64,000 bases of DNA from Maricaulis alexandrii (lineage in GTDB: Bacteria; Pseudomonadota; Alphaproteobacteria; Caulobacterales; Maricaulaceae). The stretch covers positions 372,001-436,000 of the forward strand of contig NZ_SWKP01000005.1 in NCBI RefSeq assembly GCF_005871165.1, read 5' to 3'. The notes below the pieces were generated by a model. It saw only the letters and a list, made by a program, of their open reading frames with translations, was not told the DNA's origin and did no database searches. How positions within the stretch are numbered: position 1 is the stretch's first letter; every line of letters begins with the position of its first letter. A program made the position numbers and the translations under genes. Shown in pieces: positions 38,708 to 46,971 of the stretch.

Positions 38708-39292
38708 ATGACGCATGACAGCGAGCGCGCACGGCCGAACACACAGGCCCGGCTCTTCGCCACGCTGATGGGGCGGGTCGGGGCTGACCGCGACCGTGAG
38801 GCTTTTGCAGCCCTGTTCGAGCATTTTGCGCCGCGCATCCGGTCCTTCCTGATCAACAGGCGGGTTCCGCCGGCGCTTGCGGATGATCTCACCCAGGATG
38901 TGATGCTGGCAGTCTGGCGCCGGGCGGCGAGTTTCGACCCGGCCAAGGCGGCCGTTTCGACCTGGGTCTACACGATCGCCCGCAACCTCCATATCGACCA
39001 TTTCCGCAAACAGGTGCGGGCCGGCAAGATGGATGAGCAGGATCCCTACCTGCAGCCGGAACCGGCCCCGGAAGCCGAGGAATTGGTCAGCCGTTCGGAA
39101 GACGTCGACACCGTCGCCCGGGCGCTGGCCGGCTTGCCGGCCGATCAGAAATCCGTGCTGGAATTGGCCTTCGTGGAAGGCCTGTCCCACAGCGAAATAT
39201 CAACCCGTTTGGATCTGCCACTGGGCACGGTGAAATCCCGTGTCCGGCTGGCCATGACCAAGCTGAGACTATCCCTTGGAGATGACGCATGA
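38708..39292 (+). CDS. rpoE: ECF RNA polymerase sigma factor, RpoE type
   Basis: A 194-residue ECF sigma factor. Region 2 includes FAALFEHFAPRIRSFLINRRVPPALADDLTQDVMLAVWRRA and the -10 recognition stretch VSTWVYTIARNLHIDHFRK; region 4 has LPADQKSVLELAFVEGLSHSEISTRLDLPLGTVKSRVRLAMTKLR. It fits the ECF11 group paired with ChrR. I take the ATG at 38708 (GAAGGG upstream); the frame is open further upstream but includes the promoter. The stop overlaps the anti-sigma start by 4 bases. Confidence 0.87.
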   Translation: MTHDSERARPNTQARLFATLMGRVGADRDREAFAALFEHFAPRIRSFLINRRVPPALADDLTQDVMLAVWRRAASFDPAKAAVSTWVYTIARNLHIDHFRKQVRAGKMDEQDPYLQPEPAPEAEELVSRSEDVDTVARALAGLPADQKSVLELAFVEGLSHSEISTRLDLPLGTVKSRVRLAMTKLRLSLGDDA

Positions 39293-39954
39293 CCCGGCGT
39301 GGAAACGTGCTGGACGATAGTTGGTATCTGGACTACGCGGCCGGCAATCTGGAAAGCAAGGCGCATGATGTGATCATGGCGTCGCATGTGGAATTGTCTG
39401 ACGAGGCACGTCAGCGCGTCGACACGCTTGAACGCGTCGGGGCTGCCCTGATGGGCCAGAAGACCGCGTCCGGCGAGACCTTGGGCTTCGACGTGGACGA
39501 CATTCTGCGTCGGGACTGGGAAGAGGTCGTGGACGCTGTGCCGGTGCCGGCCAATGACACCGACCCGGACCTGCCGCTGCCGGCGCCGCTCACCGACTGG
39601 ATGGGCGAGACCGGAACGAAGGTGAAGTGGAGCTTCCTCGGCCCGGGCCTGTCCAAGGCCGTCCTGTGGCGCGGTCCGCGCGGCCAGCGCCTCTGGCTGC
39701 TGCGGGCCCAGCCCGGCGTGTCGATCCCGCATCACGGCCATAACGGCTCCGAACTGACGCTCGTACTCAAAGGGTCCTTCTGGGACGGTGAGACGCAATA
39801 CAAGCCCGGCGATCTGGAAGAGGCCCACGCCGGTGTGGCGCATGACATCCGGATCGATGAGGCCGGGGAGTGTGTCTGCCTGGCCCTGACCGAAGGCAAG
39901 TTGCGCTTCGATAATCCGCTCTTGAGGGTCTTCCAGCTGTTCACAGGCCTGTAG
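39289..39954 (+). CDS. ChrR-like cupin anti-sigma factor lacking most N-terminal zinc ligands
   Basis: A 221-residue partner of the sigma factor. The C-terminal cupin is intact: PHHGHNGSELTLVLKGSF gives His149, His151 and Glu155, and His185 completes the site, matching ChrR His141/His143/Glu147/His177. The N-terminal domain (YLDYAAGNLESKAHDVIMASHVEL) keeps the helix pattern that holds sigma, but of the ChrR zinc ligands His6/His31/Cys35/Cys38 only the His (His33) is seen; the cysteine positions are Ser37 and Ala40. Sigma binding must therefore work without that zinc site. The gene order sigma then anti-sigma, with 4-base overlap, is standard. Confidence 0.8.
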   Translation: MTRRGNVLDDSWYLDYAAGNLESKAHDVIMASHVELSDEARQRVDTLERVGAALMGQKTASGETLGFDVDDILRRDWEEVVDAVPVPANDTDPDLPLPAPLTDWMGETGTKVKWSFLGPGLSKAVLWRGPRGQRLWLLRAQPGVSIPHHGHNGSELTLVLKGSFWDGETQYKPGDLEEAHAGVAHDIRIDEAGECVCLALTEGKLRFDNPLLRVFQLFTGL

Positions 39955-41230: not shown

Positions 41231-41557
41231 ATGAGCGATTGGCAAGGTCAGCCTGAACTGGACATGGTGGCGGTTTCCACTTTGGTGGCCGCTGTCGGCA
41301 AGCCGGTTTTTGACGACATGAAGGGCCAGTTCGTGTCCGACCTGGAACGCCTTGTGAGCGAATATGGTGAGGCGCGCGCCCGCAATGATTCCGAGGAAGC
41401 CAAGGCCCTGGCCCACGCCCTGAAAGGGGCCGCCTCCAATATCGGCCTGAAGCGCCTGTCAGCCCTGGCCGCGGATCTGGAGCGCGGCGAATTGGGCGAT
41501 GCCGACGCGCTGCCGGATGTTCTGGATGTCTCTGTCCGTCATTTGCAGGCCGCTTGA
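41231..41557 (+). CDS. Histidine phosphotransfer (Hpt) protein
   Basis: A 108-residue four-helix Hpt domain. The phosphorylatable His62 is in ALAHALKGAASNIG, the textbook Hpt motif. No kinase domain is attached, so it receives phosphate from a histidine kinase elsewhere and passes it to a receiver, most plausibly the REC domain encoded 0.3 kb downstream. It is the first gene of a four-gene signalling cassette and has a GAGAGGG ribosome binding site. Confidence 0.83.
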   Translation: MSDWQGQPELDMVAVSTLVAAVGKPVFDDMKGQFVSDLERLVSEYGEARARNDSEEAKALAHALKGAASNIGLKRLSALAADLERGELGDADALPDVLDVSVRHLQAA

Positions 41558-41584
41558 ACCCCGACAGGCCGGCAGGAGAAGACC

Positions 41585-41887
41585 ATGGAATTCAAGACGC
41601 ATGAGGATGCCGACCGGCTGACATTGTCATTCTCCGGCATGCTGACTTTCGACGACCACGAAACCTTTCGCAGCGTCGTTACCTCGATCGTCGACAGCCC
41701 GGCCCCTACCACGGTGCTCGACCTGTCCGGTCTGACCATGATCGACAGTGCCGGAATCGGCATGTTGCTGCTGGCCAATGACCGGGCGTCCAAACAGGGC
41801 AAGCAATTGCGCCTCCGCGGTGTGACCGGTCATGTGGCCAAGGTCGTGGAATTGTCCCGGCTGGAACAACTCATCCCGATCGATTGA
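41585..41887 (+). CDS. STAS domain anti-sigma factor antagonist
   Basis: A 100-residue STAS protein of the SpoIIAA/RsbV/HsbA type. TVLDLSGLTMIDSAGIGMLLLAND contains the phosphorylatable Ser in DSAG. When unphosphorylated, such proteins bind an anti-sigma or other target; kinase (HATPase) and phosphatase (PP2C) partners switch them. Both partners are encoded directly downstream. The stop is a single base before the next start. Confidence 0.85.
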   Translation: MEFKTHEDADRLTLSFSGMLTFDDHETFRSVVTSIVDSPAPTTVLDLSGLTMIDSAGIGMLLLANDRASKQGKQLRLRGVTGHVAKVVELSRLEQLIPID

Positions 41888-41888
41888 G

Positions 41889-43073
41889 ATGATGTCTCCG
41901 GCACATGTCGCGGACCTGGCGCCCGAGGCGGGTATCGCATCCGCCCGCATCCTGATCGTGGACGATCTGGAATCGTCGCGTCGCCTGATCGGGACTGTTC
42001 TGGAAAGCGCCGGCTTCACCAATCTGGACTTTGCGGCGGACGGTGAGGCCGCGCTGGCCCGCATGGCCTGCAAGCCGGACATGGTTGTGCTCGACATTGT
42101 CATGCCCGGCCCGGACGGGTTCAAGGTCTGCGAGCGGATCCGGAGCGAATTCAGCCCGGATGTCCCGGTCCTCATGCAGACCGGCATGCAGGAGGATGAC
42201 TACCGGCTGCGGGCCTTCCGCGCTGGCGCGTCGGATATCGTCTCCAAGCCCATCGATGCCGGCGAGCTGGTGTCACGGGTTCGCCTGCACCTTGAACGCC
42301 GTCGGCTCATGTCCAGCCTGCAGATCTACCGGCAGCGCATGGAAGAGGATTTGCGCGTGGCGCAGGCCATGCAGCACTCCCTGCTGATGTCCGCGGAGCA
42401 GGTGGACGCGATTGCCGGCCCGCGCGGGGCCCGTCTTTCGACTTTCTACCAAGCCTCCAACACGCTGGGGGGAGACCTCTGGCAGGTCTTCGCCGTCGAC
42501 GAGACCCGGTTCGGGATTTTCATGGTGGATTTGTCCGGGCACGGCGTTTCTGCGGCGATCAACGCCTTTCGGGTCCACATGCTGGTCACCGGGATGACGG
42601 CGCTGGCGGATCGTCCCGGTGTCTGGATGCAGGCGCTCAATCGCGCCCTCGTGGACATGTTGCCGGTCGAGCAATTCGCCACCGGTTTCTACGGTCTGGT
42701 CGACCGGGCGGCGGGCACGCTGACCTACGCGTCAGCCGCCACGCCGCCGCCCTTGCATTTCCGGGCTGATGGAAGCTGGTCGGCCCTCGATGGCTCTGGC
42801 GTGCTTCTGGGCTGCAATGCCGCGGCGGACTACCCGGTCCGCACCTGCCCGCTGGGGGCGGGAGACCGGGTCTTTATTTACAGTGATGCGCTGTACGAGA
42901 ATTTCCGGGATCCGGAGGCGTCCTTGGAGACCCCGGACCTGGCGGCCCATGTCCAGGCTGCCCTGCAATCCCGGGATGATTTCCAGGCCGCGCTCCTGTC
43001 CCGGGTCTTCGGTCCCGACCAGGCGCATCCGCATGATGACCTGACCTGGGTGATGCTGGAGGCGGGCGAATGA
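41889..43073 (+). CDS. Receiver-PP2C phosphatase (RsbU/HsbR-like)
   Basis: 394 residues. An N-terminal receiver (about 20-135) has acidic Asp25-Asp26, the phosphoacceptor Asp69 (VVLDIVMPG), Thr98 and Lys120. A coiled-coil linker runs about 133-170, then a SpoIIE/PP2C phosphatase with metal-binding Asp196 (GGDLW), Asp214 (MVDLSGHGVSAA) and a late Asp in HDDLTWVML. Phosphorylation of the receiver would set phosphatase activity on the STAS protein encoded just upstream. In Pseudomonas HsbR the same two domains are fused to a third, HATPase domain; here that domain is in the next gene, overlapping by 4 bases. Confidence 0.87.
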   Translation: MMSPAHVADLAPEAGIASARILIVDDLESSRRLIGTVLESAGFTNLDFAADGEAALARMACKPDMVVLDIVMPGPDGFKVCERIRSEFSPDVPVLMQTGMQEDDYRLRAFRAGASDIVSKPIDAGELVSRVRLHLERRRLMSSLQIYRQRMEEDLRVAQAMQHSLLMSAEQVDAIAGPRGARLSTFYQASNTLGGDLWQVFAVDETRFGIFMVDLSGHGVSAAINAFRVHMLVTGMTALADRPGVWMQALNRALVDMLPVEQFATGFYGLVDRAAGTLTYASAATPPPLHFRADGSWSALDGSGVLLGCNAAADYPVRTCPLGAGDRVFIYSDALYENFRDPEASLETPDLAAHVQAALQSRDDFQAALLSRVFGPDQAHPHDDLTWVMLEAGE

Positions 43074-43921
43074 ACCGCCGCAAGAAGGACAGGATCTGGC
43101 TGGCCCTGGCACCCGGTCGCCTGACCGACGCGCTGGTCGCGGCCTTCGAGCTGGAGGCGGGAGACCGTCTGGTCTGCGGCCCCGATCTGCCGGTCGAGGG
43201 GGATATCGGGATTGTTGTGGCCGATCAGGCTCATGCCCACGCCATTGCCCTGGCCCGGACGCGCGCCTCCGATGCCTTTCAGTCGGTCCTGCTGGGCGAT
43301 CGCCCGGATGAGGCGGAGCCGGCAGACTATGTCCTGTCTCCCGATACCGATACGGCTACGCTGGTCGCGGTTGTCCGGATCGCCCGGGATTTCCAGGAGG
43401 AAGTCGCCAGCTTGCGGGCCGATGTGGCGTCGCGCCGGTCCGCGGTCGGCACGATCATGTCGGGACAGTTCGAGTTCCGGACGCTGGACGAGGCCCGAAA
43501 CCTCGCCACCATGCTCGCCCTGGCCTGCCCCAATTCCGATCTCGTGGCCGTGGGTCTGCAGGAATTGCTCGTCAATGCGGTGGAGCACGGCAATCTGGAG
43601 ATCGGCGCGCAGGAAAAGCAGGACCTGCTCCTGTCGGGCCAGTGGCGGGCCGAGATCGAAAAACGCCTGCAGGATCCGCGCTATTCCGAACGCCGCGTGA
43701 TCGTCAATTTCAAGCGCGGACGCCGGATGATTTCCCTGACGGTCCAGGATGACGGGGCCGGTTTCGACCATGCGGCCCTGGACGTGGACGACAGCGGCGG
43801 AAGCGGGTATCGGGGGCGGGGCGTCGCGCTGGCGCGCTCCCTGTCCTTTGCCTCTGTGACCTTTCTGGGATCTGGCAATCTGGTGGAGGCAACCCTACTG
43901 CTCGACCCGGCGGCTGCATAA
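43070..43921 (+). CDS. HATPase (anti-sigma kinase-like) protein with receiver-like N terminus
   Basis: 283 residues. The C-terminal half is a GHKL ATPase of the RsbW/SpoIIAB kind: N box ELLVNAVEHGN (Glu165, Asn169), G1 DDGAGFD (227-233) and GRGVALAR (249-256). Between N box and G1 there is an unusually long helical insertion (about 178-205). The N-terminal 100 residues look like a receiver fold (LVCGPDLPVEGDIGIVV, alternating strands) without a clear phosphoacceptor Asp, followed by a short coiled coil. It probably phosphorylates or captures the STAS protein. It is the last gene of the cassette; no sigma factor is adjacent. Confidence 0.78.
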   Translation: MNRRKKDRIWLALAPGRLTDALVAAFELEAGDRLVCGPDLPVEGDIGIVVADQAHAHAIALARTRASDAFQSVLLGDRPDEAEPADYVLSPDTDTATLVAVVRIARDFQEEVASLRADVASRRSAVGTIMSGQFEFRTLDEARNLATMLALACPNSDLVAVGLQELLVNAVEHGNLEIGAQEKQDLLLSGQWRAEIEKRLQDPRYSERRVIVNFKRGRRMISLTVQDDGAGFDHAALDVDDSGGSGYRGRGVALARSLSFASVTFLGSGNLVEATLLLDPAAA

Positions 43922-45627: not shown

Positions 45628-46971
45628 ATGAAAACTCTACTCGCAGCTCTGGTGTCTGTGGCCGCCGTGTCCGTGCCGGCCATGGCGCAGGATTACAGTG
45701 CCCCGCCAACCTATGGCAGCGTCAATCTCAATGCCGGTTTCACGCCGGACCCCTACACGGTCCAGCTGACCTCGGGCGGGGCCCGTCCCGCCAGCAATGT
45801 CTCCTCGTCCTGCCGGGGGTGGATCGCCAATGCGCCCGATTTCTCGGTGACCTATTCGGCCGGCTCCACTTTCGACCTGACCATCGGAGCCGTGTCGGAC
45901 AGCGACACCACGCTCGTGGTGAACGGTCCGACCGGCCGCTGGTATTGCGATGATGACAGCGGTGAGGGTCTCAATCCCTCTCTGACCTTCGCCAATCCGA
46001 GCTCGGGCCGTTACGACATTTGGGTCGGCTCCTATCGCGAAGGCGATTACGCTTCGGCCACGCTGGCGATTTCCGAGCTGGGCCTGACCAGCGGCGGCGG
46101 GGGCGGTGGCTCCTATGGCGGGATCGACTGGTCCCTGCCGGCCAATTTTGGCAGCACCTCCCTGCGCGGCGGTTTCTCGCCGGATCCCTATACGGTTGAT
46201 GTCGTGTCCGGCGGTGCGTATGCGGCGTCGAGTGTCGACAGCAGCTGCCGGGGCTATGTTTCGGGGGCTCCGGACTTCGAGTTGAGCTTCTCCGCGGGTT
46301 CCTTGCCGCTGACGATCGCAGCCGTCGCCAGTGGTGACACCACGCTTCTGGTCAATGACCCGAACGGCAACTGGTATTGCAATGATGATGGCGGTGAGGG
46401 GCTCAACCCGCTGCTGACCTTCTCCAATCCGCGTTCGGGCACCTATGACATCTGGGTCGGGTCCTACAGCGAAGGCCGAAACATCAATGCCACCTTGTCC
46501 TTCTCCGAGCTGGGCCTCACGGCCGGCAGCAGCGGTGGTGGCGGGGGCGGCGGCTCCTATGGCCAGATCGACTGGTCCCTGCCCGCCAATTTCGGCAGCG
46601 TCTCCCTGCGCGGCGGCTTCACGCCGGACCCGTATCGCGTGGATATCGTGTCCGGGGGCACCCACCGGGCCTCCGAAGTGCGCAGTGGTTGCGCTGGCTG
46701 GGTGTCGGCCGCCCCGGACTTCGAACTCAGCTTCACCGCCGGCTCGCTGCCGCTAATCCTCTCGGCCGCGTCCAGCAGTGACACGACCATTCTGGTCAAT
46801 GACCCGAATGGCAACTGGCACTGCAATGATGATGGCGGCAATGCGGGTCTGAACCCGGCGCTGACCTTCAACAATCCGGCCTCGGGTACGTATGACATCT
46901 GGATCGGTTCCTATCGCCAGGGCCAGAATCCAAGTGCCACCCTGTCGATCTCCGAGATCTACAGCGAATAG
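45628..46971 (+). CDS. Secreted protein with three tandem PPC-like beta domains
   Basis: 447 residues: a signal peptide (1-20, AMAQ), then three repeats starting at about residues 29, 174 and 322, each 145-148 residues. Each repeat has a start like FGSxSLRGGFxPDPYxVD, a conserved Cys in SSCRGW/SGCAGW, and DTTLxVNxPxGxWxCxDDxxxxLNP followed by LTFxNPxSGxYDIWxGSY. Two cysteines per repeat probably form a disulfide. Poly-Gly/Ser linkers (GGGGGG) join the domains. The domain resembles the bacterial pre-peptidase C-terminal (PPC) fold, but no enzyme domain is attached. The function is unknown; ligand binding outside the cytoplasm is likely. The Asp-rich turns suggest Ca2+. Confidence 0.75.
   Translation: MKTLLAALVSVAAVSVPAMAQDYSAPPTYGSVNLNAGFTPDPYTVQLTSGGARPASNVSSSCRGWIANAPDFSVTYSAGSTFDLTIGAVSDSDTTLVVNGPTGRWYCDDDSGEGLNPSLTFANPSSGRYDIWVGSYREGDYASATLAISELGLTSGGGGGGSYGGIDWSLPANFGSTSLRGGFSPDPYTVDVVSGGAYAASSVDSSCRGYVSGAPDFELSFSAGSLPLTIAAVASGDTTLLVNDPNGNWYCNDDGGEGLNPLLTFSNPRSGTYDIWVGSYSEGRNINATLSFSELGLTAGSSGGGGGGGSYGQIDWSLPANFGSVSLRGGFTPDPYRVDIVSGGTHRASEVRSGCAGWVSAAPDFELSFTAGSLPLILSAASSSDTTILVNDPNGNWHCNDDGGNAGLNPALTFNNPASGTYDIWIGSYRQGQNPSATLSISEIYSE
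45712..46963 (+). repeat. Three tandem coding repeats of about 440 bases
   Basis: The repeat units begin at 45712, 46147 and 46591 (spacings 435 and 444 bases). Units 2 and 3 are most alike, including identical NDPNGNW and GIDW/QIDWSLPANFGS linkers, so the newest duplication is probably between them. This is a domain duplication inside one gene and not a DNA-level repeat array. Confidence 0.85.

Follow-up and report, generated by a model that had tools for sequence, protein, structure and literature searches.

A four-gene partner-switch cassette of Maricaulis alexandrii as the probable remainder of an F7-like chemosensory operon

Several described partner switches and one class of chemosensory system stand closest to the cassette analysed here, four consecutive genes at 41,231 to 43,921 of a 64,000-nucleotide stretch of the Maricaulis alexandrii genome (contig NZ_SWKP01000005.1, positions 372,001 to 436,000, forward strand; this whole stretch is referred to as the window). 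In the HptB/HsbR/HsbA system of Pseudomonas aeruginosa, HsbR unites receiver, PP2C phosphatase and kinase in a single protein with FlgM, HsbD and RpoS branches, according to the accessible part of PMC6482189. In Shewanella oneidensis the CrsR/CrsA partner switch, which controls RpoS, is encoded within the che1 locus, as given in the available sections of PMC9855816; a link between a partner switch and a chemosensory locus is thus already known. RbaV/W/Y of Rhodobacter capsulatus have a sigma target that is unknown as far as the accessible text of PMC3999984 goes. For chemosensory systems of class F7, the accessible sections of PMC7184735 give the order of the 'stage 1' cluster as anti-sigma antagonist-cheY-cheA-cheW-receptor-cheR-cheD-cheB-McpA-like-anti-sigma antagonist-serine phosphatase, with two cheW genes, and call the function of stages 1 and 2 unclear. 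An alphaproteobacterial clade of F7 appears in the tree of these sections, the analysis of gene order is given for gamma- and betaproteobacteria, and V. cholerae and P. aeruginosa are assigned a cytosolic Aer2-like receptor together with a membrane-bound McpA-like one.

The cassette encodes a stand-alone Hpt phosphotransfer protein, a STAS protein, a receiver-PP2C phosphatase and a kinase, hereafter KIN A (Table 1). All four open reading frames (ORFs) lie where an earlier interpretation of the DNA (the sequence-only reading) had placed them and carry, by Pfam, the domains it had named, phosphatase and kinase being separate proteins, as it had also stated. The phosphatase and kinase genes overlap by 4 bases. 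Our comparison of the locus with its relatives suggests that these genes are most likely the two ends of a chemosensory operon from which the sensing core was lost while the switch was kept. In the literature consulted (open PMC papers), neither an alphaproteobacterial operon with Hpt and a separate pseudo-receiver kinase nor a core-less remainder of one was found.

Compared by description, the cassette has the parts of HptB/HsbR/HsbA (Hpt, receiver, PP2C, HATPase kinase and STAS substrate), including a stand-alone Hpt with its active-site His and a STAS protein with a conserved Ser (19/19). However, receiver, PP2C and HATPase are not joined in one protein in the window, FlgM is missing and the gene neighbourhood is different. 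CrsR/CrsA, as far as the available sections describe it, is a partner switch inside a chemosensory locus, as in the full operon of Maricaulis described below; but CrsR is one protein (accessible part of PMC6482189) and acts on RpoS, which is not found over cut-off in the window genome. The Rba proteins, again by description and from the accessible text, share with the cassette a STAS protein, a HATPase and a separate receiver-PP2C protein, although rbaV-rbaW is a two-gene operon, unlike the cassette, in which STAS, RsbW-like kinase and PP2C phosphatase are encoded together.

The search for the kinase covered the window genome and 60 relatives (61 genomes). Matches were obtained in 20 of them, namely all 19 Maricaulis, one of 18 other genomes of the family and none of 24 genomes elsewhere in the order. 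Of the 19 Maricaulis genomes, 18 carry KIN A together with its cassette; in G003 neither KIN A nor a SpoIIE match was found. The core-less four-gene form occurs in 13 of the 18, and the other five (G002, G004, G005, G007 and G009) have a full operon of the order Hpt-STAS2-CheY-CheA-CheW-MCP-CheR-CheD-CheB-McpA-like-STAS-receiver/PP2C-kinase, where MCP stands for methyl-accepting chemotaxis protein and nine genes, STAS2 to McpA-like, separate Hpt from STAS. The window would thus keep the first gene and the last three. In the five che-positive Maricaulis and in G027, a genome of another genus with the same full order and different flanks, the operon opens with the Hpt orthologue and the che core comes after it. 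Where the core is lacking, the gap between Hpt and STAS is 26-60 bp in 12 genomes and 444 bp in G011. An extracytoplasmic function (ECF) sigma gene, a ChrR-family gene and a LacI-type gene lie upstream of Hpt in 5/5 full and 12/13 core-less genomes (G012, on a short contig, is counted with ChrR and LacI only, there being no ECF gene), and one or more of the genes for alkaline phosphatase, repeat protein and dipeptidase follow the kinase in 17/18, the exception being G004. A second, longer CheA (933-969 aa) is present in all 19 Maricaulis (in G000 at C7:148629-150584, 32% identity). The idea that the Hpt protein is a stray P1 domain of CheA was ruled out, as the Hpt gene of the full operons stands alongside a CheA that already has an Hpt domain.

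The catalytic residues are conserved. His62 of Hpt and both Asp54 and Ser55 of STAS are invariant in 19/19 orthologues; Asp25, Asp26, Asp69 and Lys120 of the phosphatase receiver and the PP2C metal ligands Asp196, Asp214, Asp333, Asp383 and Asp384 are invariant in 18/18 (G010 having been left out by a length filter), and Glu165 and Asn169 of the KIN A N-box in 19/19 rows, the G005 row being a partial piece. The ratio of nonsynonymous to synonymous substitution rates (dN/dS) is 0.03-0.24 across 32 gene-pair comparisons, many with synonymous distances near saturation, and the cassette is kept under purifying selection. The phosphatase is the sole SpoIIE match in the window genome, and each of the 18 cassette-bearing Maricaulis has one such match. 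STAS is the genome's only PF13466 match in a short frame, the other PF13466 matches being in frames 415-632 aa long (this genome-wide search used PF13466 and not PF01740).

Trees of the cassette and of ppdK, the single gene used as species tree (without G012), agree in placing the core-less G011 deepest in the genus. The che-positive genomes form one clade with support of 98 (cassette) and 95 (ppdK), and the other sampled core-less genomes form another, with support of 99 and 94. In the che-core tree, the core of G014 branches outside the che-positive clade (support 78), which is expected if the core is ancestral. With the full operon in G027 and the same tail order in distant alphaproteobacteria, the pattern is most simply explained by the core having been lost once or twice. 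The opposite direction, in which the four-gene form came first and the che-positive clade and other lineages acquired the che core between Hpt and STAS, is quite unlikely in our estimate. It would account for the core-less state of G011 and for core-less clusters outside Maricaulis (L159, L171, L173), and the position of the G014 core at another site indicates that cores can move; but the core would then have had to arrive at the identical point and with the identical gene order in both Maricaulis and G027, and the STAS-phosphatase-kinase tail stands behind che genes in distant alphaproteobacteria too.

In G014 the cassette is core-less and its che core lies on another contig (C11, L084:7172-17011) with its own STAS gene and without Hpt, phosphatase and kinase. 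Beside this moved core is an ORF of 72 aa which resembles a transposase piece but has no Pfam match.

A search at the level of the class gave matches in 41 of 385 genomes, counting that of the window, and 20 loci were examined. A che-McpA-like-STAS-phosphatase-kinase cluster is present in 7 of these 20 loci (that of G315 starting at cheR) and, in a survey of named loci confined to the best 80 of 387, in 10: two Maricaulis, Hirschia, six Kiloniella and Oryzibacter. In several others of the 80, for example L209, L210, L237 and L263, the flank includes some che genes. The STAS-PP2C-kinase tail was absent, with the cassette as query, at 13 other che regions, from Caulobacterales and from around the window genome's second CheA; some of these regions run into the end of a contig. 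Only Maricaulis and G027 showed a stand-alone Hpt gene next to the che core. Among six distant full operons with a readable upstream region, three (G175, G227 and G323) have a frame of 874-1251 aa with an Hpt domain 2-4 kb downstream of the kinase, which suggests that an Hpt input near the module recurs. The origin of the cassette differs from that implied by the sequence-only reading: it is best understood as what is left of a chemosensory operon, a context not visible from the window by itself.

The same reading had described HsbR as split in two. Separate phosphatase and kinase genes are the usual state in the loci seen, so such a history is not supported. In Hirschia maritima DSM 19733 (L188:8747-10825), receiver, PP2C and HATPase do form one protein of 692 aa at the same position of the operon; this fusion looks exceptional, its receiver scores low (Response_reg, 33.6 bits) and the phospho-Asp is apparently Asn as read from the sequence. 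The fusion supports the view that phosphatase and kinase act together.

The full operon of the relatives (five Maricaulis and G027) is a near match to F7 stage 1 in gene order, the window itself being without the core. It has one cheW against two in stage 1, and adds Hpt in front and a separate kinase behind. The tether pentapeptide on the receptors is common to both: x-[HFYW]-x2-[HFYW] ends 17/17 complete MCPs of the relatives, and an 18th set, that of G315, has no complete MCP on its contig. We observed further that all 18 McpA-like proteins and 17/18 CheD proteins end in [IV][ED]LF (for example L068, L072, L188 and L158), the remaining CheD having AELF and three CheD having 1-5 residues after the tail, while MCPs end in W-x-E-F. 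It is possible that the tail common to CheD and McpA-like is a docking signal. STAS2 may, by analogy, be of the kind of CheS, a STAS protein of alphaproteobacterial che clusters which binds CheA according to the available sections of PMC12654446.

Several points weigh against the derivation of the cassette from an F7-like operon by loss of the core. F7 membership is assigned only from gene order and tether, and the receptors show the reverse of the pattern given for V. cholerae and P. aeruginosa, with a membrane-like stretch in 3/3 MCPs and none in the one McpA-like protein considered (by crude hydropathy). The direction of loss is drawn from trees whose nodes joining the clades are weak (67-73); two losses, or gain by recombination, could be the alternative. 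No recognisable che relic was found in the 444-bp gap of G011, and this genome lacks the ECF, ChrR and LacI flank. The kinase frame is disrupted in G005, a genome with the full operon, and G315, G269 and Kiloniella carry the kinase gene on the other strand. There is no stand-alone Hpt beside the core in the six distant full operons, and the pairing of Hpt with the phosphatase receiver is assigned putatively from gene adjacency. STAS-PP2C-kinase sets occur without che genes in L159 and L171, and in L173 (G111) STAS and receiver-PP2C face a receiver-HATPase and a weak Hpt match, without a che core. Core-less clusters thus also occur independently and may represent the earlier state.

With regard to KIN A, the sequence-only reading had noted a receiver-like N terminus without an obvious phosphoacceptor, and our analysis agrees. 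In Pfam, KIN A of the window has no match to Response_reg and matches HATPase_c_2 above cut-off. An AlphaFold model, made with a 36-row alignment (without G005, whose frame is disrupted, and the G012 copy B), has a mean predicted local distance difference test score of 83.6. Its best match in the PDB is LvrC (9qih), a response regulator of Leptospira, with E 7.9e-12 over 315 columns, followed by RsbW and SpoIIAB. The template modelling score to LvrC is 0.43 and the root-mean-square deviation 22.9; such a poor superposition suggests that the two domains are arranged differently. KIN A shares with LvrC a receiver fold and an RsbW-like HATPase, but differs in having no Response_reg match and no conserved phospho-Asp. 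Judged from the model, its N terminus is a degenerate receiver. None of the che-adjoining kinases (those of the 7 class-level loci, with that of G027) reaches the Response_reg cut-off; two have weak matches (E 0.01-0.02), and L162 is without most of its N terminus. In contrast, the receiver is matched in 12/12 scanned kinases away from che. The kinase of L168, which has no che neighbours and a receiver degenerate by eye, stands outside this count and falls, with KIN A and its paralogue KIN B, within the che-linked branch of the kinase tree (built without G005). The decay of the receiver thus appears largely to track this branch. The long helical insertion in the ATPase, to which attention had also been drawn, is real and not special, being common to the whole receiver-HATPase family in sequence alignments. 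In G005 (L071:9389-10241) the kinase matches fall in two overlapping stretches in different frames, through sequencing error or in reality.

Our preferred reading is that the cassette is probably the output half of an F7-like operon and works as a phosphoswitch, for which we infer the following steps. KIN A would phosphorylate Ser55 of STAS. A hybrid histidine kinase would pass phosphate to the stand-alone Hpt and from there to the receiver of the phosphatase; in the full operons CheA could phosphorylate this receiver directly. As the receiver of KIN A is degenerate, phosphorylation input is expected through the phosphatase. The activated phosphatase would strip the phosphate from STAS, whose phosphorylation state would decide which partner it holds.

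The likely partner was considered among the sigma factors. A FlgM profile search of the window genome gave no match. The genome has eleven sigma-70 region-2 matches, of which nine are, by NCBIfam, RpoD, two sigma-32 (RpoH-type) and six of ECF type, and the other two (L266, L272) look like ECF as judged from their ORFs. Among the nine scanned of these 11, no FliA, RpoS or SigB/SigF-type sigma was over cut-off (RpoN was not searched). The downstream partner is therefore probably none of these, and the sigma outputs of Pseudomonas and Shewanella seem unavailable in this genome. The likeness to HptB/HsbR/HsbA claimed in the sequence-only reading holds for the parts and as an analogy, and fails as membership on the sigma outputs, there being no FlgM match and no FliA, RpoS or SigB-type sigma over cut-off among the proteins scanned. 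We consider it very unlikely that the cassette is truly homologous to that system, as an HsbR divided between two proteins, and targets a flagellar sigma/anti-sigma pair or a diguanylate cyclase; its parts are the same by Pfam, and the Hirschia fusion follows the domain order given for HsbR in the accessible part of PMC6482189, but the failure to find FlgM, or FliA and RpoS over cut-off, and the synteny that binds the cassette to the chemosensory operon speak otherwise.

A switch of Rsb/Rba type, in which the HATPase protein is an anti-sigma of an ECF or RpoH sigma that is freed by unphosphorylated STAS, is favoured by the RsbW/SpoIIAB-like model of KIN A and by the number of sigma-70 proteins in the genome. 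RbaV/W/Y, in the accessible text of PMC3999984, are such a set without an adjoining sigma gene, but an interaction of RbaW with a sigma factor was not found in that text. With no SigB/SigF-type sigma over cut-off in the nine proteins scanned, we regard this alternative as rather unlikely.

The statement of the sequence-only reading that no sigma or anti-sigma gene adjoins the cassette is nearly right: an ECF gene and a ChrR-family gene are found 1.3-2.5 kb ahead of it, separated from it by a LacI-type gene. Since proteins of the ChrR family act as anti-sigma factors for such ECF sigmas, the pair was thought unlikely as the target; it is probably outside the switch and part of the conserved flank.

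A different candidate is KIN B, which has the architecture of KIN A and is present in 19/19 Maricaulis (window genome, C7:101245-102066; L035:9195-10091). It is 34-42% identical to the window kinase across the 19 genomes, and sits in a ppdK/glyS neighbourhood wherever the stretch is long enough. The catalytic Glu of its N-box is lost in all 19, replaced by Val (17) or Cys (2), and the Asn is Ser or Ala in exactly the five che-positive genomes and retained in 14. Its dN/dS of 0.04-0.13 (8 pairs) indicates purifying selection, so that it has the features of a conserved pseudokinase. KIN B of G003, which has neither the phosphatase nor KIN A, is the most diverged, with a mean identity of 46% to nine core-less genomes against 60-61% for G011, G004 and G009; ppdK is conserved alike in all (0.87 in G003 against 0.82, 0.88 and 0.89 in the same three). 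Dependence of KIN B on the cassette is thus suggested, in one genome. The kinase tree pairs KIN A with KIN B, weakly (support 71), and the kinase search showed no KIN B in G027. A second cassette around KIN B was rejected, as the four cassette queries match nothing else in the 19 copy-B stretches, several of which are short.

KIN B is a candidate STAS partner, and the first concrete one for the switch. It is possible, and we propose it tentatively, that this pseudokinase rather than a sigma factor is the output, with STAS toggling between KIN A, which phosphorylates it, and KIN B, which only binds it and carries the signal. If this is true, an ancestral chemosensory core was discarded and the partner switch was rewired to a home-made STAS receptor.

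The cassette might serve as a natural handle on what this type of chemosensory system controls, as sister species retain the core intact. Provided that the Maricaulis operon is F7-like, the genus is a natural experiment with array species, species that have the switch but no array at this site, and G003, which is without phosphatase and kinase. Should the switch function in species that lack the array, what it acts on becomes a candidate ancestral output, one that can be followed against a background of just one SpoIIE-family phosphatase, and the open question of the ancestral F7 output becomes testable.

Table 1. Coordinates of the cassette genes and of the conserved sigma/anti-sigma pair in the window
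Feature	Position	Strand	Evidence
Hpt phosphotransfer protein, stand-alone, 108 aa, His62	41231..41557	+	Pfam Hpt E 2.4e-13
Hpt-STAS junction, 27 bp; nine chemosensory genes there in 5 sister genomes	41558..41584	+	synteny
STAS protein, 100 aa, predicted phospho-Ser55 in DSAG	41585..41887	+	Pfam STAS_2 E 1.9e-16
Receiver-PP2C (SpoIIE family) phosphatase, 394 aa, receiver Asp69	41889..43073	+	Response_reg E 1.5e-26, SpoIIE E 3.1e-34
Kinase KIN A, 283 aa, putative degenerate receiver (about 1-110) and HATPase, N-box Glu165/Asn169	43070..43921	+	HATPase_c_2 E 9.2e-8
ECF sigma gene	38708-39292	+	upstream flank, conserved
ChrR-family anti-sigma gene	39289-39954	+	upstream flank, conserved; NCBIfam name

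The start of the phosphatase at 41889 was preferred over 41832 since it lies 1 base past the STAS stop and is the choice of the gene caller. Downstream of the cassette, at 45658-46971 of the window, a secreted-looking protein carries three similar repeats of ~140 residues each by eye. A homologue of this repeat protein lies downstream of the cassette in 15 of the 18 cassette-bearing Maricaulis (the window's included) and is often of ~300 aa.

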